This document shows positions 2,466 through 38,018 of a stretch of DNA of 38,018 nucleotides, in pieces. Below the pieces are notes generated by a model. It searched no databases. It was not told the DNA's origin and saw only the letters and a list, made by a program, of their open reading frames with translations. The stretch covers positions 1 to 38,018 of IMG/VR virus record IMGVR_UViG_3300010397_000038; one strand, given 5' to 3'. Numbering within the stretch: position 1 is the first letter of the stretch; each line of letters begins with the position of its first letter. The position numbers and the translations under genes were made by a program. Source of the stretch: a virus.

Positions 2466-3965
2466 TTACACGACTCTTTTACACCTGTTTTCTACAACTT
2501 TTTTGTGTTTTTCAAGTGAGCCTTTGAGCGATGAAACAGCTTCTAAATGTGCAACTGATTGACTGACATAACGGAAGGCGTCAGCGTAGTTTGAAGCCTC
2601 GTTATGATATGGTTCTTCTGTGTATTTTCCTAAAGATTCGTTCCATGTTTTTCGATATTTTGCCATGTTATCTAGAAGTTTTTTCACTCGATTCACGTTG
2701 AAAACACATCGTGAAATCATGATTTTCGCATGAGAAATCGATAGCTGTTTATCCATTTTTCCAAGCACATGAAAACGCGTGTTTGTGCCAGAAAACAGAC
2801 GTCTAAAATCGCGCTCGTAACTGTTGGAAATATCTAATGGATCGCGTTTTACAGAATCATGAGGCAAAAATATTGTGTGATAGAGGAATTTCTTGTCTTG
2901 TAGTAGAAATTTCGCATAAAAAGGCACGTCTTTGTTTTTGTCTTCGTAGTAGTCGATGATGCGCACTTCACCGTGAGCGATTTGAAAGAATATCATCACA
3001 GTAAGATCGTTTAGACCTATATCCATAGCGACATAGACAGGCAATAGCACATCATAAGGAGATGAGTGAAGGCAGCGATTTTCTGCATAAGCATTGTTGA
3101 TAGCTTCAGCAAAGTAAAAAGCATCGCTAGAAGATAAGAACGCTTCTTCTACAGTACTAGGAAACTCCTGTTTAATCTTGTCTCCTAAGACTGTACTTTG
3201 AACTGCATACCAGTTACGTTGAACAGGTAATATTATCTTACCCGTTGACGCCTCAACTTTATTGAAGTAATCGTTAAGCGTATGTGGATATCTTATGCTC
3301 GTATCTTCAAGGCAATAAGACGCTTCTTCAAGCCAGCTATAGAAGAAAAGCTTGTAATCCAGAGAGGATAGGTTGTCGTTGCCACGCCTAGCTGCTTCTA
3401 TAACCATCTCCGCAAAGTATCCTTCCGTCCCTTCACCCGTACTTTCAATAATTATTTGACCTTCTCTAGGAACAGCTTGAAGAGTACCCGTTACTACTTC
3501 CTCAGCTTTCTTAGGATTGCGAGCACACGTTTTTCCAAATTCGGAAATAAGCACCAAAGGATAAGAGCCCCCACGTAAGGTTGTATCAACACGTAGTGAG
3601 CTACCATTATTAAAAGTGATTTCGCGAGCGGACCTTTGAACCACTCCAATAAAGGGCTTGAGGTGATGAGGGAGCGTATCCAGTGCATGGCCGATTATCC
3701 TTTTAAAAATGTGCTGAGCATGTTCTAAAGAATAGGAGACGATTCCAGCTTGAAGATTCTCTGAGAAAAGCACGCGATCAAGGAGATAGATCACAGCAAA
3801 TGTGGACATGCCAAGCTGACGCGCTTTTAGGATGAGATTTCTGTAATGAAGATTTCTTAAGACGTCTAGCTGTACGGGATTAAGCTTAAACGGTATCGAG
3901 TTAGCATTGCGCTCAATGATTCGATAGAGATTGTTAAGGCGCCATTCAGGGCAAAGTATTGACAT
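2466..3965 (-). CDS. Terminase large subunit (packaging ATPase/nuclease)
   Basis: A 499-residue protein, the length of P22 gp2. The ATPase domain has a Walker A-like motif KARQLGMST (47-55), a Walker B ending in a catalytic Glu (YPLVLISEFGK, E142) and a coupling motif ESTGEG (174-179). The C-terminal RNase H-like nuclease has candidate metal ligands D315 (VAMDIGLND), D370 (FLPHD) and D462 (NYADAFRY). It would pump DNA through the portal and cut concatemers. Its ATG at 3965 overlaps the last base of the small-terminase stop codon, so the two are translationally coupled. A P22-like headful mechanism is inferred from the neighbours. Confidence 0.93.
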   Translation of the reverse strand: MSILCPEWRLNNLYRIIERNANSIPFKLNPVQLDVLRNLHYRNLILKARQLGMSTFAVIYLLDRVLFSENLQAGIVSYSLEHAQHIFKRIIGHALDTLPHHLKPFIGVVQRSAREITFNNGSSLRVDTTLRGGSYPLVLISEFGKTCARNPKKAEEVVTGTLQAVPREGQIIIESTGEGTEGYFAEMVIEAARRGNDNLSSLDYKLFFYSWLEEASYCLEDTSIRYPHTLNDYFNKVEASTGKIILPVQRNWYAVQSTVLGDKIKQEFPSTVEEAFLSSSDAFYFAEAINNAYAENRCLHSSPYDVLLPVYVAMDIGLNDLTVMIFFQIAHGEVRIIDYYEDKNKDVPFYAKFLLQDKKFLYHTIFLPHDSVKRDPLDISNSYERDFRRLFSGTNTRFHVLGKMDKQLSISHAKIMISRCVFNVNRVKKLLDNMAKYRKTWNESLGKYTEEPYHNEASNYADAFRYVSQSVAHLEAVSSLKGSLEKHKKVVENRCKRVV

Positions 3966-5607: not shown

Positions 5608-5680
5608 CTTTTATACAAAAGACATATGAAACATGTACCTTGGACATACGGAAAATGTACGAAAAATATACATTAAACAC
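5601..5680. repeat. GTATG/CATAC/TGTAC repeat cluster upstream of parA
   Basis: Short related words recur here: GTATGACTTTTATAC (5602-5616), CATATG, ACATGTAC, CATACGGAAAATGTAC (5645-5660) and AATATACATT. Similar words occur at 6319-6422 between parA and the ribbon-helix-helix gene, and at 16352-16422 upstream of the recombination genes. In ParF/ParG-type partition systems the ribbon-helix-helix protein binds such short repeats as operator and centromere (family knowledge). This use here is inferred. Confidence 0.5.
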
Positions 5681-5692
5681 AGGAACCCCCAT

Positions 5693-6346
5693 ATGATCGT
5701 AGTGGTAGGTGGAGTAAAAGGCGGCACGGGCAAAACCACGATTGCCACCAATCTTGCCGTTTTGAGATCTCGAGAAAACAAGAAAGTTTTGCTCGTTGAT
5801 GCAGATGAACAACAGTCAACGACTACTTGGGCTAGTCAAAGAGATGTAATGGGAATACCTACTTCTTGGGTGACCATTCAGCTGACTGGAAAAGCTGTTT
5901 ATTCGCAGCTGGAAAAAATGAGAAATGACTATGACGACATCATCGTTGATGTGGGAGGACGAGAAACTCGCTCTCTTCGTGCAGCGATTGCCATTGCTGA
6001 TATCTTTGTTATCCCATTTCAACCTAGATCGTTTGATATTTGGACGATTGGTGACGTCAAGTCTATCATCGCTGAGATGAAACAAGTGAATGACAAGCTT
6101 CAGTGCGTCGCCTTAATCAACCGAGCAGATTTTAGCGGAAATGACAACGACGATACGCTTAACATCATTCAAGAGTGCGATGATATCGAATGCTTTCAAA
6201 GCCCAATTAAGACGAGAAAGGCATTTGCAAATGCGGCTAGCGATGGGCTAGGTGTATGCGAGATGCAAAAGCCTGATCCGAAAGCGATTCAAGAAATCAC
6301 AGCGCTTTATGACTTTCTGTACAACAAATGTACAGCATCTGTATAG
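5693..6346 (+). CDS. parA: ParA-family partition ATPase
   Basis: A 217-residue protein starting at ATG 5693, right after the repeat cluster. An in-frame upstream extension overlaps those repeats and is not credible. The deviant Walker A motif is KGGTGKTT (9-16), followed by VLLVDADEQQ (switch I/A' motif) and DDIIVDVGG (Walker B). It is short and lacks an N-terminal helix-turn-helix, as in type Ib (ParF-like) partition ATPases that position plasmids on the nucleoid. The next gene encodes a small ribbon-helix-helix protein, the usual type Ib partner. A ParA/DNA-binding pair points to maintenance of the phage genome as a plasmid. Confidence 0.9.
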   Translation: MIVVVGGVKGGTGKTTIATNLAVLRSRENKKVLLVDADEQQSTTTWASQRDVMGIPTSWVTIQLTGKAVYSQLEKMRNDYDDIIVDVGGRETRSLRAAIAIADIFVIPFQPRSFDIWTIGDVKSIIAEMKQVNDKLQCVALINRADFSGNDNDDTLNIIQECDDIECFQSPIKTRKAFANAASDGLGVCEMQKPDPKAIQEITALYDFLYNKCTASV

Positions 6347-9460: not shown

Positions 9461-9658
9461 ATGTCCTACGCTGAACCTGTTCAAAAGTTTTCAGAGATAC
9501 CGAAAGAAAACATTCTAGGCATAGAGCAATATGGGAATAGGTACATGGAGGTGTTGTACAAGCATCCTAAAGGCAATTTATACGTTATTCAAATGTTTCA
9601 TAAGGAGACAGATCAAGCTGTAAGCCTTACTAAGACCATATCGAGCATATCCTCGTAA
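9461..9658 (+). CDS. Small protein behind paired operator dyads, unknown
   Basis: A 65-residue protein starting at ATG 9461 with AAGGAAGT upstream. It has alternating hydrophobic/charged strands in the middle (NRYMEVLYKHPKGNLYVIQ), suggesting a small beta-rich fold. No family recognised. Paired dyads upstream and repeated dyads downstream suggest it sits in a regulated region. Confidence 0.5.
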   Translation: MSYAEPVQKFSEIPKENILGIEQYGNRYMEVLYKHPKGNLYVIQMFHKETDQAVSLTKTISSISS

Positions 9659-9675
9659 TGATCGACAGCATATCT

Positions 9676-9762
9676 ACGATCATATCGTTGATGTCAACGA
9701 AATGGTTGTTAAGTCAGTGACGATCATTTTCGTGATGTCACGAAAATGGTCGATACTATAAT
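9676..9762 (+). promoter_or_regulatory. Tandem palindromic operators and a -10 box
   Basis: Two similar units 44 bases apart each begin ACGATCAT and contain a palindrome: TCGTTGATGTCAACGA (9685-9700) and TTTCGTGATGTCACGAAA (9728-9745). A TATAAT box follows at 9757-9762 with no good -35, as expected for a promoter whose -35 region is covered by an operator or needs an activator. The transcript would enter the small genes at 9830 onward. Confidence 0.5.
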
Positions 9763-9770
9763 ACCACCCT

Positions 9771-9816
9771 CATACGCGCGTATGTGGCCCCCCATCTTCC
9801 GAGGTGGGGACTTTTA
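9771..9816 (+). terminator. Palindrome followed by terminator hairpin just downstream of the promoter
   Basis: CATACGCGCGTATG (9771-9784) is a perfect palindrome. It is followed by the hairpin CCCCATCT (9790-9797), loop TCCG, AGGTGGGG (9802-9809), then ACTTTTAT. With the -10 box only about 10 bases upstream this would give a transcript of about 45 bases. It is either an attenuator for the downstream small genes or the end of a very short RNA. Confidence 0.5.
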
Positions 9817-9829
9817 TCTATGAGTGAAT

Positions 9830-9943
9830 ATGCTCAGCCTCATCGAAGACTTCAGCTTTGAGATATTTGCTCTCATCGAGTTTTGCATCATAGCGATCAT
9901 GCTCAGCTGTCTGTTGTGGAGAATCAAGAAAAACTACGTCTAG
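9830..9943 (+). CDS. Candidate 37-residue single-span membrane protein
   Basis: An open frame from ATG 9830 to TAG 9943. The protein begins MLSLIEDFSFEIFAL and has a hydrophobic run EFCIIAIMLSCLLW ending in the basic cluster RIKKNYV, a classic inner-membrane anchor with a cytoplasmic positive end. The ribosome site is weak. An overlapping 13-codon frame starts at 9820. It lies in a 570-base stretch otherwise without larger genes, next to another small frame. It could be a small holin-like or regulatory peptide, but the evidence is only composition. Confidence 0.4.
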   Translation: MLSLIEDFSFEIFALIEFCIIAIMLSCLLWRIKKNYV

Positions 9944-9950
9944 GAACCAA

Positions 9951-10109
9951 ATGTCAAGAAGAATACAACAAGCACTGTATCTAAAATTTCTTATAATCGA
10001 ACTCTACCTTCACGATAAATTGCATAACGCTCTTAGAAAATGGCATGAATCTCTAAAAAGGCGTGTCTATAAATTTGATAGCGATCAAAAAAACATCAAC
10101 AACCTCTAA
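9951..10109 (+). CDS. Candidate 52-residue basic protein
   Basis: An open frame from ATG 9951 to TAA 10109, 7 bases after the preceding small frame. It is strongly basic and helical (MSRRIQQALYLKFLIIELYL at the start, then LRKWHESLKRRVYKF). The start could be an amphipathic helix. Spacing suggests co-translation with the 9830 frame. No family recognised. An ACGCTTTTTTTT run follows but no stem is obvious. Confidence 0.4.
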   Translation: MSRRIQQALYLKFLIIELYLHDKLHNALRKWHESLKRRVYKFDSDQKNINNL

Positions 10110-10232
10110 AATTTACGCTTTTTTTTCTTCTAGATTGGTACGCAACCGCCTGGTACCGTGACAAACATTGAGAAGAATGTGACAAAAATGCATCATAGGA
10201 AGCAAAGACACAACACCAAGGAATGACATAAA

Positions 10233-10625
10233 ATGACAGATTTAGTGATTGAGTACATGAAAAGAGCCGACATCATTCAATTGCTGGCTATCGGCATCAT
10301 GTTCTGGTTTTTCTATAACCGTTTAGATGGAAAGCTTGGAAGCAGACTGGATAAGCTAGAGACAAAGATGGATAAGCTAGAAACAAAGATTGACCGCGTA
10401 GAAAACTCTTTGAATGCACGCATGGATAGGTTAGAGACAAAAATTGAGACCGAAGAATGCGTACTGAATGCAAGAATGGACAAAATCGATACTCGAATCG
10501 AGAGACTCACGGAACAAGTCATAGACATAAAATGCGGTCTAAATCGTATTGAAGGAAATCTAAACTCACAAGGCCATTGCCTTTTTCATCAGAAACAGCA
10601 ACAGAATGAACCAAAAGCACTATAG
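10233..10625 (+). CDS. Membrane-anchored coiled-coil protein
   Basis: A 130-residue protein. Residues about 11-29 (ADIIQLLAIGIMFWFFYNR) form one transmembrane helix. Residues 35-110 are a long coiled coil built from repeats of the type RLDKLETKMDKLETKID. The C-terminal tail has CLFHQ and a Gln-rich end. Phages often carry such proteins as holin/antiholin-like or superinfection proteins. The role here is not provable. Its ATG at 10233 follows a 120-base non-coding leader, and its end overlaps a potential upstream start of the next gene. Confidence 0.65.
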   Translation: MTDLVIEYMKRADIIQLLAIGIMFWFFYNRLDGKLGSRLDKLETKMDKLETKIDRVENSLNARMDRLETKIETEECVLNARMDKIDTRIERLTEQVIDIKCGLNRIEGNLNSQGHCLFHQKQQQNEPKAL

Positions 10626-10632
10626 GAACACT

Positions 10633-10983
10633 ATGAAAAAACTTGTACTTCCCTTTCTCTTAGCTTTTCTTTGTGTGAACACACTCAACGCATTTGAAGG
10701 ATTTCGCCTTCCTGGAACGAAAAAGCCTCACCGTGAGCGCATGTATATCGATGAGGAAGAGCTGGATATGACAGGAGATTGTTTCCATATTCACGTAGGA
10801 AATAACGAATGGATTCAAACAAAATCCATTCATCGAGATCAGCGTGGATTGTACACGTATGAATCGAGTATTAAGGGACAGGAAGCCGGATATGAGAAAC
10901 ATTGGAAATGTCCATATTGTTATGCCCATTGGCCTATGCACACGAAATGCCAGAACCCTGATTGCCCCTCTAAATACATTTGA
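10633..10983 (+). CDS. Secreted zinc-ribbon-like protein
   Basis: A 116-residue protein starting at ATG 10633 (MKKLVLPFLLAFLCVNTLNA): a Sec signal peptide with basic start, hydrophobic core and probable cleavage after NA at residue 20. An upstream in-frame ATG at 10606 would bury the signal, so it is rejected. The mature part has CPYCYAHWP and CQNPDCPSKY near the end, four cysteines in a ribbon-like spacing. An exported protein in a phage-plasmid suggests a lysogenic conversion or envelope function. Confidence 0.65.
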   Translation: MKKLVLPFLLAFLCVNTLNAFEGFRLPGTKKPHRERMYIDEEELDMTGDCFHIHVGNNEWIQTKSIHRDQRGLYTYESSIKGQEAGYEKHWKCPYCYAHWPMHTKCQNPDCPSKYI

Positions 10984-11001
10984 GAAATAAGGACTTTGAC
11001 A

Positions 11002-11250
11002 ATGGTCGCTCTGTTTTGTTTTCAGGGAAAGTATTTCGATACATTCGAGGAATTCAGTGAATATGCCAAGACATGGTACGCTATGCCTATCACTGAAGAA
11101 AGCATTCACAGCATTCTTGAAAACATGAAAAAAGAGATCATGTTGAATGTCAGGCTAACAAATAAGCAATTCACGAATCTCGAATTTAGCCAAATGGTTG
11201 ATGTTGCCTTCAACTGCATTGTTACAGAAATGCATAACACTCAAACATAA
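11002..11250 (+). CDS. Small protein upstream of the serine recombinase, unknown
   Basis: An 82-residue protein starting at ATG 11002 with AAGGA 10 bases upstream (the TTG two codons earlier is a worse choice). It is helical and mildly acidic with an aromatic start (MVALFCFQGKYFDTFEEFSEY). No family recognised. It ends 5 bases before a 31-base dyad and 56 bases before the recombinase gene. Confidence 0.55.
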   Translation: MVALFCFQGKYFDTFEEFSEYAKTWYAMPITEESIHSILENMKKEIMLNVRLTNKQFTNLEFSQMVDVAFNCIVTEMHNTQT

Positions 11251-11255
11251 TTCTA

Positions 11256-11286
11256 GTGTGAACGTCTATACTATAGGCGTTCACAC
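11256..11286. promoter_or_regulatory. 31-base dyad upstream of the serine recombinase (possible res site or operator)
   Basis: Arms GTGTGAACG (11256-11264) and CGTTCACAC (11278-11286) flank an inner palindrome CTATACTATAG. Of the 15 symmetric positions, 14 pair. It lies 20 bases upstream of the recombinase start. Small serine recombinases bind dyads of about this size next to their own gene (resolvase res subsites). An operator is the alternative. No T-tract, so not a terminator. Confidence 0.5.
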
Positions 11287-11306
11287 ACAATTGAAAGACT
11301 TAATCA

Positions 11307-11990
11307 ATGAAATACGTTCTCTATCTACGAGTAAGCACAGAGCAACAAGTGCTTTCAAATCTAGGTATCGAAGGGCAGCGTGAGTGCTGCCTTAGGTATA
11401 TCTCAAGAACAGCGCCTAATTCTGCTCCTCACAATGTCCTTGAATTCGTTGAAGAAGGGCTGTGCGGAGCGATTGAGCTAGAAAAGCGCCCTGCTCTGCT
11501 TTCTGCTATTTCTGTTCTAGAGAAGGGCGACGTGATGCTTGTCTCTCAAAGAGACAGGCTTTCACGTGGCGACCCCTTTTGCACCGCTATGATCGAAAGA
11601 GCTATAGAGCGCAAGAAGGCAAGACTCATCAGCGCAAGCGGTGATGTTCTGGATTCTACTGATCCTGGAGCCATTCTTATGAAGCGCATGGTAGACGCTT
11701 TTGCAGAATATGAGCGGCTGATCATAGGCTCAAGAACACGCGTAGCATTACAAATCAAGAAACGCAAGGGCGAGCGTGTTGGTTATATCCCTTATGGGTA
11801 TAAGCTAAACGATGACAAAGTACACATATCACCTTGTGAGCATGAAACGAAAATTCTTTCACTTATTGCAGAGCACAGAGAAATGGGACTACCTTATAGA
11901 AAAATTGCTAAGAATCTCAATGAGCTGAGATACTACAATCGAGCAAATAGGCCTTGGAATCATGTATCACTGCAAAGGGTGTCTAAATGA
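11307..11990 (+). CDS. Small serine recombinase (resolvase/invertase family)
   Basis: A 227-residue protein. The catalytic domain starts YLRVSTEQQ with the nucleophile S10. It continues with VSQRDRLSRG (Arg residues of the active site) and the E-helix region DAFAEYERLIIGSRTRVAL. A short recombinase-type DNA-binding part follows (GYIPYGYKL, then LPYRKIAKNLNE, a helix-turn-helix). It is much shorter than large phage integrases (450 or more residues), so multimer resolution of the circular phage-plasmid, or inversion, is more likely than integration. It converges with the minus-strand operon that ends at 12001, 10 bases away. Confidence 0.85.
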   Translation: MKYVLYLRVSTEQQVLSNLGIEGQRECCLRYISRTAPNSAPHNVLEFVEEGLCGAIELEKRPALLSAISVLEKGDVMLVSQRDRLSRGDPFCTAMIERAIERKKARLISASGDVLDSTDPGAILMKRMVDAFAEYERLIIGSRTRVALQIKKRKGERVGYIPYGYKLNDDKVHISPCEHETKILSLIAEHREMGLPYRKIAKNLNELRYYNRANRPWNHVSLQRVSK

Positions 11991-12000
11991 AAATAAATAA

Positions 12001-12513
12001 TCAGACTTCACCGCTAATGACCTCGATTAAAACACTGTAATTGTCACAGATCACCTGATCATACTTCACGTCAATCTGCTCACACGAGTCAGCTCGCCCT
12101 GGCCTATAGTCACCTGTGATGACGGCACATACCGCATCCAAGACATATTTTAGAGACATTGGCAAATTATCAAACTTGTCTAGTTTTTTAGGCGCATATC
12201 GAGTTAGTTTAACCAAACAAGGCAACTTAAACCCGTTTCTATATGGCCTTAGATTCAATAATACTGTTCCTTTTTGTAATAAAGTCCTTCTATGCTTCTC
12301 CGTCCAATGTTCGGCTTTGTAACACTTTTTGCCATTGACCACGTAAGATTTTTTAACCCCCCCGTTTGACTCGGGGGCGGTGAAAATGGGAAGCCTGGCT
12401 TTGAAGTGGCCAGGGTCATTTTGCACAAAACGCACAGAATCGATCTCAGTTGAGCTATCTTTAGCTAAACCTCTCTTGACACCACTCGACTTGTTTTGTG
12501 CGATTCTAGCCAT
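12001..12513 (-). CDS. RusA-like Holliday junction resolvase
   Basis: A 170-residue protein. The part RYAPKKLDKFDNLPMSL, then YVLDAVCAVI and a later DSCEQIDVKYDQV, matches the RusA family, in which three conserved Asp (here in KLDKFDN, LDAV and the C-terminal block) hold the metal. RusA homologues cut four-way junctions made during recombination or replication. The N-terminal 60 residues (basic start, FTAPESNG) are less typical. Last gene of the minus-strand replication operon, 25 bases after the SSB-like gene. Confidence 0.75.
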   Translation of the reverse strand: MARIAQNKSSGVKRGLAKDSSTEIDSVRFVQNDPGHFKARLPIFTAPESNGGVKKSYVVNGKKCYKAEHWTEKHRRTLLQKGTVLLNLRPYRNGFKLPCLVKLTRYAPKKLDKFDNLPMSLKYVLDAVCAVITGDYRPGRADSCEQIDVKYDQVICDNYSVLIEVISGEV

Positions 12514-17211: not shown

Positions 17212-17758
17212 ACAAAACTGGATTTGGTACGGTCACGCTGGACATTTAATTGTGGCACAATCGTGCCGCTTTCATATGCTAACATGGGTAAACGGGTTTT
17301 TAATTTCCACGGTTGGGGAATATTTGCCAGATCGAGAAATACGACGCTGCTTGAAAGAGAACGATCCCGAGCTTCTGGGATTGAAAGGAGACGATTTTGA
17401 AAGGACGTATTTTAAAAAATACGGCTTTGAAGAAATCGGGTACGGCAGAACATATGAAACCACGGTATTCATCGCAAAAGAATGTGAATGCGGTTGTGAA
17501 GGATATACGCCTTCTTGTTCAGAGTTTCTGGATTTCAAAGGTTACAATAGTTCTAAAGATGCTACTCAAGGCCATTATAAGCTTTGTGAGGTATGGGACA
17601 AAGCAGCGAGTCCCGTGTCGATAAAAAACTGTCCTGATTGGCACAACAATATACAGCCTATCATGAAACTAAGAGACACGGGAGTAATTGAAGAAGATGA
17701 GTATGAACGGCTTGTGAGCAAATTAGAATACAAACTTTTGAAAGGCGACTACGAATGA
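17204..17758 (+). CDS. Conserved phage protein of unknown function
   Basis: A 184-residue protein starting at ATG 17204 with AAGAGG upstream, overlapping the ERF stop by 8 bases. The start (WYGHAGHLIVAQSCRFHM, then VNGFLISTVGEYLPD) and the block YGFEEIGYGRTYETTVF match an uncharacterised family I recall from other phages. Two Cys-rich spots (ECECGCEG) suggest metal binding in the middle. It lies between two recombination genes and is translationally coupled to both, so a role in the same pathway is possible. Confidence 0.7.
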   Translation: MSRQNWIWYGHAGHLIVAQSCRFHMLTWVNGFLISTVGEYLPDREIRRCLKENDPELLGLKGDDFERTYFKKYGFEEIGYGRTYETTVFIAKECECGCEGYTPSCSEFLDFKGYNSSKDATQGHYKLCEVWDKAASPVSIKNCPDWHNNIQPIMKLRDTGVIEEDEYERLVSKLEYKLLKGDYE

Positions 17759-18606
17759 GAAAAGTACAAATAGAACAAGGCTCAGAAGAATGGCTCTCTT
17801 GGAGAAAAGGCCTAATCACCGCTACAGAAGCAAGCAGCATCATGGGTGTAAACCCATGGTGCACAGCTTATAAGAGCTGGCAAAGAAAAGTAGGCCAGAT
17901 TCCTCAGCAAGAAGAAAATGACGCCATGCGAAGAGGAAAAAGAGATGAGCCTATCGCTCGAGATCTTTTCATCAAACAGTATGGAATTGAAATGACTCCA
18001 TGCTGCATTGAAAGCGAAATGTATAACTTTCTTGGGGCTTCCCTAGATGGGATTAGCCCCTGTGGAAAATATATCTTAGAGGTGAAATCAACGCGTCCAA
18101 CAGATAGAGTTCCGGATTACTACTATGCGCAAATGCAGCATCAAATGCTATGCGGTGATGGGTCTATTGACAAAGGCTTTTATGTTTCCTTTTGGGAGGA
18201 GGCGATTCATGTTTTACAAGTGATACCAGATATTGATTGGACACGTCAATATATAGAAAAGGCCAAAGAATATTGGCGCTGTGTTGTTTTTCATGAGCCT
18301 CCAGAGATGACAGGTGGAGACTATAAAAGCATGGAATCAGAAATGGAATGGCAGTTCCACGCGTCAAGTTACATTGATCTTTGCAATGCTATCAAAGAGT
18401 TGGAGGAAAAAAAAGAACGACGCAGAAGAAAGCTCATTGAGCTTTGCGATAATAACAGCTGCCGTGGAGGTGGGGTTAAAGTGCTTAAGAAGACTATCAA
18501 AGGAAGGATCGACTATGAATCCATCCCTGAGATCAAGGAAATTGACCTAGAGAAACATCGCAAACCTACGAGCATCTCTTGGACAATCCTTCTTGATCAG
18601 CAATGA
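17755..18606 (+). CDS. YqaJ-family exonuclease (lambda Exo-like)
   Basis: A 283-residue protein. The start EQGSEEWLSWRKGLITATEAS is the conserved entry of the YqaJ/lambda exonuclease family. The catalytic core shows GASLDGI (D98) and YILEVKST (E109, K111), the D-ExK set of the PD-(D/E)XK fold, followed by AQMQHQML. It would resect one strand from double-strand ends, supplying substrate to the ERF protein. The C-terminal helical part has a basic coil (LEEKKERRRRKLIE). The ATG overlaps the previous stop by 4 bases. Confidence 0.92.
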   Translation: MRKVQIEQGSEEWLSWRKGLITATEASSIMGVNPWCTAYKSWQRKVGQIPQQEENDAMRRGKRDEPIARDLFIKQYGIEMTPCCIESEMYNFLGASLDGISPCGKYILEVKSTRPTDRVPDYYYAQMQHQMLCGDGSIDKGFYVSFWEEAIHVLQVIPDIDWTRQYIEKAKEYWRCVVFHEPPEMTGGDYKSMESEMEWQFHASSYIDLCNAIKELEEKKERRRRKLIELCDNNSCRGGGVKVLKKTIKGRIDYESIPEIKEIDLEKHRKPTSISWTILLDQQ

Positions 18607-22919: not shown

Positions 22920-25196
22920 TTACAGTGGTCTAACGATGAAATAAGCCACTGTAGAGACATCAGCAGTTTGAGGTGAACCAGGAGTTCCTAGGATCAAGCT
23001 TGTAATTGTGAAAGAAGCACCATTGCTAATGGTGTAGCTAAGCTCGCCAAGCGTCACAGATCCATTGGCTGCAACACGTGATAAGAAGATCAAATCTCCT
23101 GTTGCAATATTTGTATTGGCAACCGTTACGGTTCCTAGAACAAGCACAGCAGATCCTGCAAAATCTGTAGCTGCCCCAGCTTTGATTTGTAGTCCTTTAC
23201 CTGTTGTAGCAATCTTTAAGTGAGAACTTGTCACCGCAACGTTTGCCGATCCCCCCACAATGCTAACCCCACTTGCTCCAGTGGTGTTACCGATTGTGAT
23301 GGTTTTTGCTGCCGCATCAGCACCAATGTTAATCGCTCCTGTACCTGTGACAATTCCAAAACTTCCGTTTGTAGTTGTCCAAGCGCATGCACCTGATCCA
23401 GAATTTACATTGACTGCAGTTGCTCCCGTGATATTACCGATCGTAATGGTTTTAGCAGCAGCATCTGCACCAATATTAATTGCCCCTGTACCAGTCACAA
23501 CACCAAATGAACCGTTGGTTGTTGTCCAAGCACATGCTCCAGATCCTGAGTTCACATTGACTGCAGTTGCACCTGTGATATTACCAATAGTGATTGTGTG
23601 GGCTATTGCATTGGTACCTATATTTAGAGCACCTGTTCCACAGTTAACCACAACGCTTGTTGCGCCTGTAGAGTTTCCTAGTGTGATTGTTTTTGCTGCC
23701 GCATCGGTACCTACGTTAATTGCCCCTGTGCCTGTAATTAAACTGAAATCACCATTTGTAGTTGTCCAAGCGCAAGCTGAAGAACCTGAATTGACGTTCA
23801 CAGCTGTGGCTCCAGTCACATTGCCAATCGTAATAGTCTTGGCAGCGGCATCTGTACCTAGATTGATTGCTCCAGTTCCTGTTGCTACGCCAAATGAGCC
23901 GTTTGTAGTTGTCCAAGCGCATGCTCCAGAGCCACTATTCACATTCACAGCTGTTGCGCCCGTCACGTTTCCAATGGTGATAGTATGTGCTACTGCGTTT
24001 GTTCCTATGTTAAGTGCCCCTGTACCACAATTGAGGACAACACTTGTTGCGCCTGTTGAATTTCCTACTGTAATTGTGTGAGCAGCGGCATCTGCGCCAA
24101 TATTAATTGCTCCTGTACCTGTTACAAGGCTAAACGCGCCGTTTGTTGTGGTGTAGGTTGATCCCCCTGTACCTGTATTAATATTGACTGCAGTAGCTCC
24201 TGTCACGTTTCCGATTGTGATTGTTTTCGCTACTGTGGTACCGATGTTAATTGCACCTGTACCTGAGTCAATCACAACTGCACTAGCGCCTGTTTGGTTT
24301 CCAATGGTCACTGTTTGAGCAATGGCATTTGCACCTATTTGAACACCCGCTGAACCGCTATTCACAACAACTTGAGTGGCACCTGTACTATTACCTACTG
24401 TAATTACACGAGCTGCAGCTCCAGTGCCGATATTAATATTTTGCGCATCCGCATCGTTACCAATCCCAATTACACCTGCAGAGCTATTTAGTTCTAAAAC
24501 ACCATCTGCATCTAGAAGCATCGTGTCATCAGAATTAAGGATAATGTCACCTGAACCGGTAGTGGTGACTGTGAAATGTCCTGTGCCTGTGTTGACAGCG
24601 ACTGCTGTAGCTCCTGAGATGTTTCCTATTGTGATCGTGCGAGCCGCTGCTCCTGTACCAATATTTACAGCAGCCGTATCAGCATCAGAGGCTAAATTTA
24701 AGGCTGTACCAGCTGTTAAAATAGTTGCCGATCCACTTAAAGAAGATAGTCCGCTAGCTGCCAGTGTTGTAAAGGCGCCTGCCCCTGGAGTGGTTCCACC
24801 AATGGCGGGAGGAGTTGCGAGCAATTGTGCTGTCTTAAGAGGCGTCATTGCTACGTTATCATTGGATGCTGCTTGAGCTTCTGCAGTTGTGGCGAGCTGG
24901 CCAATACCCGAAAGTGTTTCACTCCATGCGGGGGCGCCTGCAATTGCCAAGTTATCCGCGTAGAGCTTAGTGGCTACAGGAGAACTGTTATCTGTAAGGA
25001 GCACCACACCCTCAACTACGGTCGTTGCAGAAGGAACAAGACCTCCTACAGCGCTAGCTAGTGTTGCAGGGGTAATATAAAGCTGCTCGGATAAGCCAGC
25101 TGCTGCTTCTGTTGCATTGGCGGCTTTAGTTTGCCCTGTCCAAGCTTGGTTTGATTGTTTGCCTGTATAGCTGTTAGGACGCGCAAATTTGGGCAT
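22920..25196 (-). CDS. Long repetitive tail fibre protein
   Basis: A 758-residue, Gly/Thr/Asn/Ala-rich protein of low charge. After a 100-residue N-terminal part (PKFARPNSYTGKQSNQAWTG...) it is built from repeats of about 40 residues: TGAINIGxDAAAKTITIGN, then xTGATAVNVNSGSGACAWTT and TNGSF. A C-terminal 80-residue part differs (LSRVAANGSVTLGELSY). Such beta-rich repeats form long fibre shafts. No catalytic motif. It lies between the putative ejection genes and the second fibre, with a plus-strand ribbon-helix-helix gene at its 5' side. Confidence 0.75.
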   Translation of the reverse strand: MPKFARPNSYTGKQSNQAWTGQTKAANATEAAAGLSEQLYITPATLASAVGGLVPSATTVVEGVVLLTDNSSPVATKLYADNLAIAGAPAWSETLSGIGQLATTAEAQAASNDNVAMTPLKTAQLLATPPAIGGTTPGAGAFTTLAASGLSSLSGSATILTAGTALNLASDADTAAVNIGTGAAARTITIGNISGATAVAVNTGTGHFTVTTTGSGDIILNSDDTMLLDADGVLELNSSAGVIGIGNDADAQNINIGTGAAARVITVGNSTGATQVVVNSGSAGVQIGANAIAQTVTIGNQTGASAVVIDSGTGAINIGTTVAKTITIGNVTGATAVNINTGTGGSTYTTTNGAFSLVTGTGAINIGADAAAHTITVGNSTGATSVVLNCGTGALNIGTNAVAHTITIGNVTGATAVNVNSGSGACAWTTTNGSFGVATGTGAINLGTDAAAKTITIGNVTGATAVNVNSGSSACAWTTTNGDFSLITGTGAINVGTDAAAKTITLGNSTGATSVVVNCGTGALNIGTNAIAHTITIGNITGATAVNVNSGSGACAWTTTNGSFGVVTGTGAINIGADAAAKTITIGNITGATAVNVNSGSGACAWTTTNGSFGIVTGTGAINIGADAAAKTITIGNTTGASGVSIVGGSANVAVTSSHLKIATTGKGLQIKAGAATDFAGSAVLVLGTVTVANTNIATGDLIFLSRVAANGSVTLGELSYTISNGASFTITSLILGTPGSPQTADVSTVAYFIVRPL
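23230..24680. repeat. Tandem coding repeats of the tail fibre (about 120 bases per unit)
   Basis: Within the fibre gene, near-identical blocks (encoding AAAKTITIGN...TGAINIG units) recur about every 40 codons, with several pairs nearly identical over more than 60 bases. Such blocks recombine easily and may vary in number between isolates or be collapsed in assembly. Confidence 0.8.
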
Positions 25197-35561: not shown

Positions 35562-36863
35562 TTAACCTTTAGTAGAGAGCAGGGTTACGATATGGGAGTC
35601 ATCCAAAATGGCAGCGTTAAACCATGCTGTGAAGCCCATCGATTGGAAGCGGTTCAAATAATCATTAAACCCTAAAGGCTTAAGAATCATTTCTGTAGAT
35701 ACCTGGTCGAGACCAACATACCCGTAAGCATTAGCTCCAACGAATGTATTGTTATAAACAGGTGGATTTGTTGCCGACACTTTAACTAGAGTGGATGTAA
35801 CCCATCTAGCTTCATCTGTAGCACCAAACTCTGCTTGTAACACAGGCTCTTGAGAACCATACTGAGACGTTGGGACAAACGCATCTAAATTGCGAATATC
35901 TGGTTTTAAATTTACGTGCGCAGTGACCCAGAAACCCGCTTCCACGGGCCCTGTACCAAAGCGTGAAGTTCCTTCGATGGTTGGAGTCATCTTCTCAGTG
36001 TCATTATCATCAAGGTATTGAATAGCCCTGTTGACGTCTGTCTGAGTCAGCTCCGTAATTGCATTTCCGTTTGCCAATCTGTTACTTGATGACCAATAAT
36101 TAAGTTTCTGTTAATTATTGGCGGCCCAGTCATCTCTGCTGGACTCTCGACCTTCATTTATACGTCGAGTTCAGACTATCGCTTCCCCAGTCGGTTTCAT
36201 TTTGTAACCTACTGAAGTCTTCTCACTTAGTCGTTCAGGCTGGAGATCAAAAAAAGCATTTTTTGGAATAGTAGCACCATGTTCACCAAATCCCTGAAAA
36301 TAATAGAAATTTTCATCTTCTTTGATGAGAGGTCCATATACTTTTTCTAGCTCTTCTTTCATTCCTTGCCCCTTGTTAACCCCCGCTTACGCAGCCAGGC
36401 ACTCCAAGTCCATCAGAGAAGATTTTACAACGGCACATCGTTTACCGTTGAGGCACGTAATTTGAGGTACGCTCGCGTCCCAAACATCACGCGTAACCTT
36501 GTCAAGCATAGTGTGCATGCACTGTGAAAGGTTGTCAGCGGTCTCTGAGGCCGTATCATCTTCCACGACAAGCAATACTTTTCGTCCAAGCAACACCACT
36601 TTTCCAAACTCTTGAATAGTGACGTTGATATCGAATTTTTGTACTTGCTCAGGTGCTGGATCAGCATCTTGAGAAAGGACAACAGGGTCAGAGTTCAGGT
36701 TCTCTTGACGCCTAAAGGCCATAGTATCTGTGTTCTTCTGTGGAAGGGTAAACGCACGTCCAAACAGATTGTGAACACATCGAGGCTTAGAACGCTGAAG
36801 CAGAGCCCGATGTGCCCAGCGATCGGACATTGAGCCGTAGCCCGAAGTCGTTGTTACTGACAT
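35562..36863 (-). CDS. Major capsid protein (N4-gp56 family-like), interrupted by a group I intron
   Basis: Exon 1 is 36863-36444 (140 codons, ATG with AAGGA upstream) and exon 2 is 36074-35562 (170 codons plus stop). They are in the same frame and join as ...TCLNG|ANGNAITELTQTD..., giving 310 residues. The N-terminal part (LFGRAFTLPQKNTDTMAFRR, then VTIQEFGKVVLLGRKV) and the C-terminal part (DIRNLDAFVPTSQYG, EARWVTSTLVKV) follow the N4-gp56-type capsid pattern, with NG-NAITELT directly after a Cys-x-Asn-Gly strand. Without splicing translation stops at 36387. A split gene or pseudogene is the alternative, but the join is exact and in frame. It lies right after the scaffold. Confidence 0.85.
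36075..36443 (-). ncRNA. Group I self-splicing intron in the major capsid gene
   Basis: 369 bases, ending in G (36075). P1: exon CAACGGU (36450-36444) pairs with GCCGUUG (36434-36428), with U.G at the splice site. P3: UCUUCUC (36422-36416) with GAGAAGA (36224-36218). P7: GACUA (36232-36228) with UAGUC (36178-36174). P8: CAGUAGGUU (36214-36206) with AACCGACUG (36196-36188), one A.G mismatch. P9 hairpin: CUCGAC/GUCGAG (36169-36164/36151-36146). Further 3' hairpin: 10-bp CAAUAAUUAA/UUAAUUAUUG (36120-36111/36103-36094). P10: exon 2 GCA can pair with UGU just before the P1 3' strand. Order P1-P3-P7-P3'-P8-P7' is that of group I. P4-P6 are not fully resolved by eye. Confidence 0.85.
36171..36362 (-). 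CDS. ORF inside the intron, unknown (no homing-endonuclease motif)
   Basis: A 63-residue frame from ATG 36362 with GCAAGGA upstream (good ribosome site). The product starts MKEELEKVYGPLIKEDENF, has YYFQGFGEHGATIPKNAFF and ends GYKMKPTGEAIV. No LAGLIDADG, GIY-YIG or HNH residues are seen. It runs across P7, P3', P8 and the P7' strand, so RNA fold and coding are superimposed. It could be a real small protein, a remnant of an endonuclease or a chance frame. Confidence 0.45.
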   Translation of the reverse strand: MKEELEKVYGPLIKEDENFYYFQGFGEHGATIPKNAFFDLQPERLSEKTSVGYKMKPTGEAIV

Positions 36864-37543: not shown

Positions 37544-37927
37544 CTAAGAAGGCATTGCACCCTTTGCTTGAAGGTAGGCCACACCTTTTGTGTTGAAATC
37601 GACTTTTAGCTTTTTGTCTTTACATCGTGTTACCATCCACAGCAGCTCACAAATCCCTTTCTTATTACTTACCCAAAAAACCATCTGATTGGATGTGAAA
37701 GGGGGTAAGCGAAATGTGATGACTGGCTTGCTGATAACGAATTGAGATCCATCTAACTGATCAAATTTAGCGTGCAAGGTTAGATAATAGTTCTGATCAA
37801 TGTGTTGATGAGCTAAAACAGCTTTATCAATGACATCATCAATTACCTTTTTCAAAGCTAGCTTCTCATCGACGAATTGTCTTGGAAGCATTAAACCGCT
37901 TTGAGGATCTTGCAGTAAATTCGTCAT
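37544..37927 (-). CDS. Small virion-operon protein, unknown
   Basis: A 127-residue protein starting at ATG 37927, inside the terminal repeat, so the true molecule continues from base 32 of this window. Sequence is mixed helical/beta (LQDPQSGLMLPRQFVDEKLA, VISKPVITFRLPPF, FWVSNKKGICELL). It lies 32 bases before the scaffold. No family recognised. Confidence 0.65.
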   Translation of the reverse strand: MTNLLQDPQSGLMLPRQFVDEKLALKKVIDDVIDKAVLAHQHIDQNYYLTLHAKFDQLDGSQFVISKPVITFRLPPFTSNQMVFWVSNKKGICELLWMVTRCKDKKLKVDFNTKGVAYLQAKGAMPS

Positions 37928-38018
37928 CCGTTACATCCCACTCATTCCGCGTAAAGAGTCTTGTTGTGTTTGAGCTTTCTGAAGCAGTTTATTCGCCCTG
38001 CGCTGATCGGCGTTCATA
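37896..38018. repeat. Terminal direct repeat, right copy (circularity overlap)
   Basis: Identical to 1-123. It includes the start of the gene at 37544-37927 and a fragment of the gene at 36-242. Counting it once gives a circle of 37,895 bases. Confidence 0.93.

Follow-up and report, generated by a model that had tools for sequence, protein, structure and literature searches.

The major capsid protein gene of the viral DNA analysed here, a stretch of 38,018 nucleotides referred to below as the window, is interrupted on the minus strand, at positions 36443-36075, by a group I intron. The intron is confirmed by several lines of comparative evidence and is a member of a large, previously unrecognised family. 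We estimate a probability of about 0.93 for the overall reading that, judged from sequence comparison, this is a group I intron of a family which has repeatedly entered capsid genes with re-matched guide sequences and whose RNA appears to be arranged for translation before splicing.

The interrupted capsid gene

The capsid reading frame spans 36863-35562 on the minus strand; it stops at a TAA at 36389-36387 and then resumes in the same frame. Excision of exactly 36443-36075 (369 nt) fuses TCLNG to ANGNAITELT and generates a 930-nt open reading frame of 310 amino acids, residues 2-305 of which match PHROG 1357, 'major head protein', with an E-value of 1.4e-30. From the reading frame and the match of the joined protein to PHROG 1357, exon 1 (36444-36863, minus strand) encodes residues 1-140 and exon 2 (35562-36074, minus strand) residues 141-310 of the major capsid protein. 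On unspliced RNA, exon-1 translation would end (..KSSLMDLECLAA*) at the UAA at 36387-36389 of the minus strand, which by frame reading lies in the P5 loop of the intron. Since the exon-1 frame contains this in-frame stop, capsid synthesis is predicted to depend on splicing.

The preliminary description of this DNA had proposed that removal of the intron leaves an intact capsid protein, and this was borne out by relatives from viral contigs: the 310-residue product aligns at 85-99% protein identity to the best 80 of 165 relatives, a list that is ordered by match and hence biased to uninterrupted genes. All of these 80 have an uninterrupted capsid gene, and none carries the insert as translated residues, the observation that had been named as contrary to an intron. 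Furthermore, DNA alignment revealed the empty insertion site to be intact in the 80 intronless relatives, and the family covariance model detected no intron anywhere in their capsid loci.

Structure and covariation of the intron

The intron (36075-36443, 369 nt, minus strand as for all its elements below) begins with AAACGAUGU and terminates in AACAGAUUG, its last base being the G at 36075; its delimitation draws on intronless relatives, an independent covariance model and covariation. P1 comprises 7 bp with a U.G pair at the 5' splice site and is formed by the exon strand CAACGGU (36444-36450), with splicing after the U, and the internal guide sequence GCCGUUG (36428-36434), both assigned by pairing and P1 statistics. 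The P10 intron strand UGU (36435-36437), assigned from family P10 statistics, makes 3 bp with the GCA of exon 2 (36074-36072). The core consists of P3 (UCUUCUC, 36416-36422, with GAGAAGA, 36218-36224; pairing and covariation), P4 (CUUG, 36405-36408, with CAAG, 36372-36375; covariation and covariance model), P6 (GGGC, 36368-36371, with GCCU, 36237-36240; covariation) and P7 (GACUA, 36228-36232, with UAGUC, 36174-36178; core motif and covariation). The P8 hairpin (36183-36217), placed by the covariance model, exceeds the length seen in most relatives and would be translated in the frame of the intron ORF. It is followed by the P9 hairpin CUCGAC/GUCGAG (36146-36169), a P9.1 hairpin and a P9.2-like hairpin of 11 bp (36093-36121), P9 and P9.2 being assigned by pairing. 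The P1, P3, P7, P8 and P9-like hairpins, the terminal G and the 3-bp P10 that had been described earlier were each found again at their positions.

According to this structure, the pre-mRNA would adopt the P1-P9 fold, a P7-bound guanosine would attack 3' of the U in CAACGGU, and exon 1 would then attack behind the terminal G (36075), giving the 930-nt ORF for the 310-residue capsid protein.

Viral contigs were searched with a P7-P3' core motif for which 0 hits are expected in the shuffled window. This search returned at least 72 contigs, nearly all with a matching P7' and P8 downstream, and a second motif search added further introns beyond those 72 contigs. Forty relatives, with the window intron left out, were aligned for the analysis of covariation and for a covariance model (R1). 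Across these 40 introns, 97.8% of the 1075 pair cells in P3-P8 are standard pairs, and two-sided changes are seen in 17 of the 27 core pairs; none of 500 shuffled controls comes near this level of core pairing, while slid versions drop to about 40-50%. Trained without the window intron, R1 recovers it at 36424-36145 (84.9 bits, E = 4.4e-21) in a match whose P6 loop is extended by a long insert, and finds no second match in the whole window.

The guides of the 89 introns listed form 6.76 of 7 pairs with their own exons, as opposed to 3.68 with swapped guides, a score that is partly by construction since guides were picked for pairing. P10, which played no part in choosing the guides, is complete (3/3) in 60 of these 89 introns compared to 12.6% when swapped, a value reached by 0 of 10000 permutations. 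Hence, the P1 and P10 statistics lend independent support to the splice sites.

A match to the group I models of Rfam had also been expected. It alone among the expectations of the preliminary description did not materialise: the window gave no Rfam match at gathering or permissive thresholds, and RF00028 (Intron_gpI) scores a sibling without a P6 insert (L135) at a sub-threshold 28.9 bits (E = 0.0014; gathering cut-off 50). Because Rfam overlooks the family, the capsid genes of such phages may appear in annotations as broken fragments.

The central proposal of the preliminary description, that a group I intron interrupts the capsid gene, is nonetheless backed by structure, covariation, the independent covariance model and the 80 intronless homologues. 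It is extremely improbable that the insert is intein-like or translated, or that it arose by misassembly: although its length is divisible by three, its three in-frame stops rule out an intein or translated insertion, its ribozyme structure covaries and recurs in many independent relatives, and its exact removal restores the protein.

A family of introns in capsid genes

The motif searches, which ignored the identity of the interrupted gene, detected introns at no fewer than 149 loci, with a PHROG-1357-like capsid gene in at least 87; as the set was drawn with window-core motifs from redundant contigs, of which only exact or near-exact copies were dereplicated, the counts are lower bounds and are skewed to close relatives. 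Capsid coding sequence lies on both sides of the intron in at least 91 cases, including a second copy of the window (L153). Most of the remaining introns reside in other major head proteins (PHROG 283, 9953, 1328 and 267), with PHROG 283 in the largest cluster (at least 37 loci); a minority are located in the portal gene, and at least three in ribonucleotide reductase genes. The relatives are overwhelmingly found in capsid genes, representing at least five head-protein families. The P22-coat-type (PHROG 283) capsid genes of L144, L196, L161 and their relatives carry two to three family introns and no read-in frame, while L223, L204 and L235 have family introns inside or beside portal genes.

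Within the PHROG-1357 gene, at least 44 distinct positions are occupied (counting joined proteins that score above 20 bits), and each intron possesses its own guide pairing. A single capsid gene may contain up to five introns (L186), and four are present in L116, L084 and L182. On the minus strand of L186, at 9498-12100 of the reverse complement, the capsid gene is apparently split by these five introns, which are related to one another and of group I. The window intron occupies column 155, phase 0, where no other family intron was found, and the adjoining site 154/0 holds at least eight. Its nearest relative is L101, with which it has 80% of the core in common and which, on our reading of the L101 P1, is inserted about one base away. 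Site labels switch 58 times on the intron tree, many branches of which are weakly supported, and these changes imply that introns move between sites, beyond inheritance at one. Pattern matches in four of five bacterial genome contigs (L260, L262-L264) were set aside as chance-like, having no R1 match.

This family membership, with introns at 44 or more positions of one gene, had been overlooked in the preliminary description, and the open-access PMC literature yielded no report of capsid genes with many group I introns.

Mobility and spread

The insertion point had been described as a typical homing target. This holds in so far as the position is a hot spot, with relatives at 154/0, 155/2, 158/0 and 161/0, but the window intron has no endonuclease gene, and its 63-aa ORF has no nuclease match in Pfam or PHROGs. 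Elsewhere in the family, large P6 inserts contain LAGLIDADG endonuclease genes, mostly antisense and mainly at site 118/0, as well as one HNH protein; LAGLIDADG genes are also found in one copy at 154/0 and one at 195/0. The introns of L256, L249, L182, L098 and L253, with antisense LAGLIDADG genes in P6 and mostly at capsid site 118/0, constitute the mobile form of the family.

How the introns reached new capsid positions is a separate matter. At slightly under even odds, they may have spread by reverse splicing into abundant capsid mRNA, the products then being reverse-transcribed and recombined. Among late mRNAs, that of the major head protein usually has the highest expression, and the bias of the family towards major head proteins, in at least five families, is consistent with entry by this route, as are the 44 or more sites in one gene with guides always matched to the new site and the lack of an endonuclease in most copies. 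The LAGLIDADG copies (118/0, and one each at 154/0 and 195/0) weigh in the other direction, since DNA homing combined with relaxed cleavage could explain part of the pattern; moreover, no reverse transcriptase was seen and the cDNA steps are hypothetical. According to a 2014 review, direct evidence that group I introns reach ectopic sites through reverse splicing is wanting, the best circumstantial case being that of rDNA (PMC3984707). The occupied positions with matched guides in this one gene family, numbering at least 44, form a far denser natural record than the rDNA case, and this density makes spread by reverse splicing testable.

A conserved read-in frame from exon 1

In 84 of the 93 listed non-redundant PHROG-1357 introns, the frame of exon 1 is the one frame of the intron 5' half without an early stop. 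This open read-in frame, which the preliminary description overlooked, runs as ..KSSLIDLE.. across P3 and P4 and reaches its stop after a median of 58 nt, compared to about 16-17 nt for the other two frames. At least one in-frame copy is present at 39 of the 44 listed sites (p = 4e-14). We considered whether the frame is a by-product of a fixed 9-nt P1 loop and phase-0 insertion, and rejected this: phase 1 or 2 sites keep the frame in 11 of 14 listed cases (p = 7e-4), the length of the P1 loop offsetting the phase, and the listed introns of other genes are in frame at chance level (10 of 28). Most group I introns have a stop directly past the 5' junction, whereby ribosomes are kept out (PMC3073962, review); the read-in frame of the capsid family is the reverse of this arrangement.

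The stop lies in the P5 loop in 34 of the 38 listed introns with a P6 ORF versus 8 of 34 without one (Fisher, 1e-8), and otherwise at P6'. The last read-in residue is Ala in 62 of the 84 listed introns, and the last two are AA in 46, which is never the case in the other two frames; both stop positions (P5 loop and P6' GCC-UGA) yield -AA ends. Ribosomes exiting exon 1 would thus pass P1, P3 and P4 in a fixed frame and terminate in P5 (or P6'). Soon after this stop, a Shine-Dalgarno site in the core would start the small-protein ORF in the P6 loop, to be read through the ribozyme core. If the intron RNA is arranged for translation before splicing in this manner, splicing and intron translation would have to compete on one RNA.

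As to what the frame is for, a serious candidate, though one that we place appreciably below even odds, is that it serves splicing or the P6 ORF: a ribosome moving through P1/P3/P4 would clear wrong exon-intron pairings and re-initiate on the ORF after the P5 stop. Such a role accords with the association between P5 stop and P6 ORF, with the start codon being located 17-32 nt past the stop in 34 of 38 listed introns, and with the promotion of bacterial group I splicing by upstream exon translation (PMC3073962). It accords less well with the ORF-less introns, which also keep the frame and stop in P6', or with the statement in the same review that most group I introns stop ribosomes just past the junction.

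A further proposal, about which we are more doubtful, is quality control, in which unspliced capsid mRNA would yield a truncated capsid protein with an SsrA-like C-degron (-LAA, -AA) and assembly-poisoning fragments would be degraded. Its attraction is that a capsid fragment could poison assembly. The restriction of the AA and A ends to the read-in frame is in its favour, as is the fact that two different stop positions both give -AA. In addition, the tmRNA tag of a Parachlamydia metagenome-assembled genome (MAG) bearing a relative ends in ELMAA; the tags of two relatives of this MAG (itself LMAA) end in AAAA and LVAI. Yet RNA structure also dictates GCUGC-GUAA and GCAGCC-UGA, and about a quarter of the ends differ (ALS, VFN, AIS). 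No report of degron-tagged read-in was found in the open-access PMC literature.

Reading frames through the ribozyme core

The preliminary description also overlooked a 63-codon ORF that passes through the ribozyme core of the window intron. This ORF (MKEELEKVYGPLIKEDENFYYFQGFGEHGATIPKNAFFDLQPERLSEKTSVGYKMKPTGEAIV; 36171-36362, minus strand), assigned from its reading frame and the family anatomy, starts in the P6 loop and continues in frame through P6', P7, P3', P8 and P7', with the tail QPERLSEKT.... The AAGGGG at 36369-36374 (minus strand), part of P4/P6, is a Shine-Dalgarno-like site for the ORF, as indicated by the sequence and by family ORF statistics. All 39 distinct listed P6 inserts of 80-300 nt carry an ORF whose start codon lies 12-20 nt downstream of the first base of ACAAGGGGCAAG, within which AAGGGG doubles as P4/P6 and Shine-Dalgarno-like site; shuffled inserts would be expected to give 0.76 open frames. 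The ORFs range from 27 to 116 codons; the frame of the core peptide QPERLSEK is used by 38 of the 39, and 36 continue through the core. At their N-termini they belong to several groups without relation to each other (CxxC..CxxC zinc-ribbon-like, others by eye), and a few distant homologues are found at different sites (L084/L211, 47%; L142/L156, 33%). In the first of these pairs (near 6364 in L084 and near 5549 in L211), one ORF has the core tail and the other ends in SLND*; it is the L084 ORF that ends without the core tail, which implies that the protein does not require it.

The P8 extensions remain in the ORF frame. Between L088 and L120 there are eight synonymous and three non-synonymous differences (pN/pS 0.09), and the tails of L101, L105 and L124 give pN/pS values of 0.15-0.25. 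These low values argue for protein-level selection on translation through the core, at least in L088/L120 and L101/L105/L124.

Pfam and PHROGs searches of 36 P6 ORFs produced nothing above cut-off, and no relative of the 63-aa ORF of the window was found among viral contigs and annotated phages. A weak Pfam match of the latter to YcxB (E = 0.013, below cut-off) was not believed. In this one copy, the ORF is possibly a slowly decaying remnant.

It is unlikely that the P6 ORFs at large are decayed homing endonucleases as opposed to cargo proteins. Full-size LAGLIDADG or HNH genes do fill the same P6 loop in some members, and the HNH N-terminus is a zinc ribbon, as in several of the small ORFs; however, most LAGLIDADG genes are antisense whereas the small ORFs are sense, the latter are open in 39 of 39 inserts and belong to several unrelated groups, and purifying selection acts on their tails.

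The conserved read-in frame, together with the core-spanning ORFs, points to selection on the translation of unspliced RNA, and such selection is relevant to the way in which a phage coordinates splicing, translation and capsid assembly. Only tentatively, and as an account that is rather improbable in its entirety, do we propose that capsid-specialised introns invert the usual rule: the frame would be kept at nearly every site, unspliced RNA would give a degron-tagged fragment plus a re-initiated cargo protein read through the core, and the introns would spread by reverse splicing.

Genome and host context

A perfect terminal direct repeat of 123 bp (1-123 and 37896-38018) makes it probable that the window covers a complete phage genome, assembled in circular form. 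A P22-like portal (246-2417) and an adjoining terminase-like large subunit (PHROG 2; 2466-3965) are encoded near its start. Genes for a ParA-type ATPase (5633-6346), a serine recombinase (resolvase; 11307-11990) and a YqaJ exonuclease (17755-18606) are present as well, and a plasmid-like or temperate lifestyle is possible. On the minus strand, 22920-25196 encodes a 758-aa ORF of repeated GTGAINIG..AKTITIGN units with a 147-bp tandem repeat (23273-23640), and the opposite strand also has long open frames.

A relative whose capsid gene contains several introns is located on a contig of 39.8 kb in the Parachlamydia MAG, and the capsid gene with intron motifs occurs in 2 of 50 genomes related to this MAG. 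This suggests Chlamydiota hosts for part of the phage group, an assignment that depends on MAG binning.

Comparison with known systems

A close parallel is mycobacteriophage LittleE (Cluster J), whose major capsid gene likewise harbours a group I-type intron; as in the window, the exon ends in U and the intron in G, and splicing was demonstrated by RT-PCR and protein sequencing (PMC3706429). Unlike the window intron, that of LittleE is 819 bp in length and contains an antisense LAGLIDADG-like gene; unlike the family, it is present as a single copy at a single site, in one phage out of six, and the parts of the report consulted here describe no small core-spanning ORF or read-in frame (PMC3706429).

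In the T4 td intron with I-TevI, as in the family, the ORF of the P6 loop encroaches on the core, in td on P6a and P7, a case of 'core creep' (PMC3073962). The td ORF encodes a homing endonuclease and its ribosome site is sequestered, whereas the family ORFs are diverse products of 27-116 codons that are not recognisable nucleases and that, unlike td, come after an open exon-1 read-in frame. The group I introns of Bastillevirinae resemble the family in that several (up to three) may occupy one phage gene, but the genes they interrupt are DNA polymerase, terminase and nucleotide genes, most of these introns carry endonucleases, and their mean length is 802 nt (PMC11878797). Finally, the Nitratidesulfovibrio/Desulfovibrio phage 7757 (PV062637, OR395405; 81312-81483 in both), a cultured phage of 142 kb, has 73% identity over 85% of a family core sequence, and with this related intron core it represents a possible experimental system.
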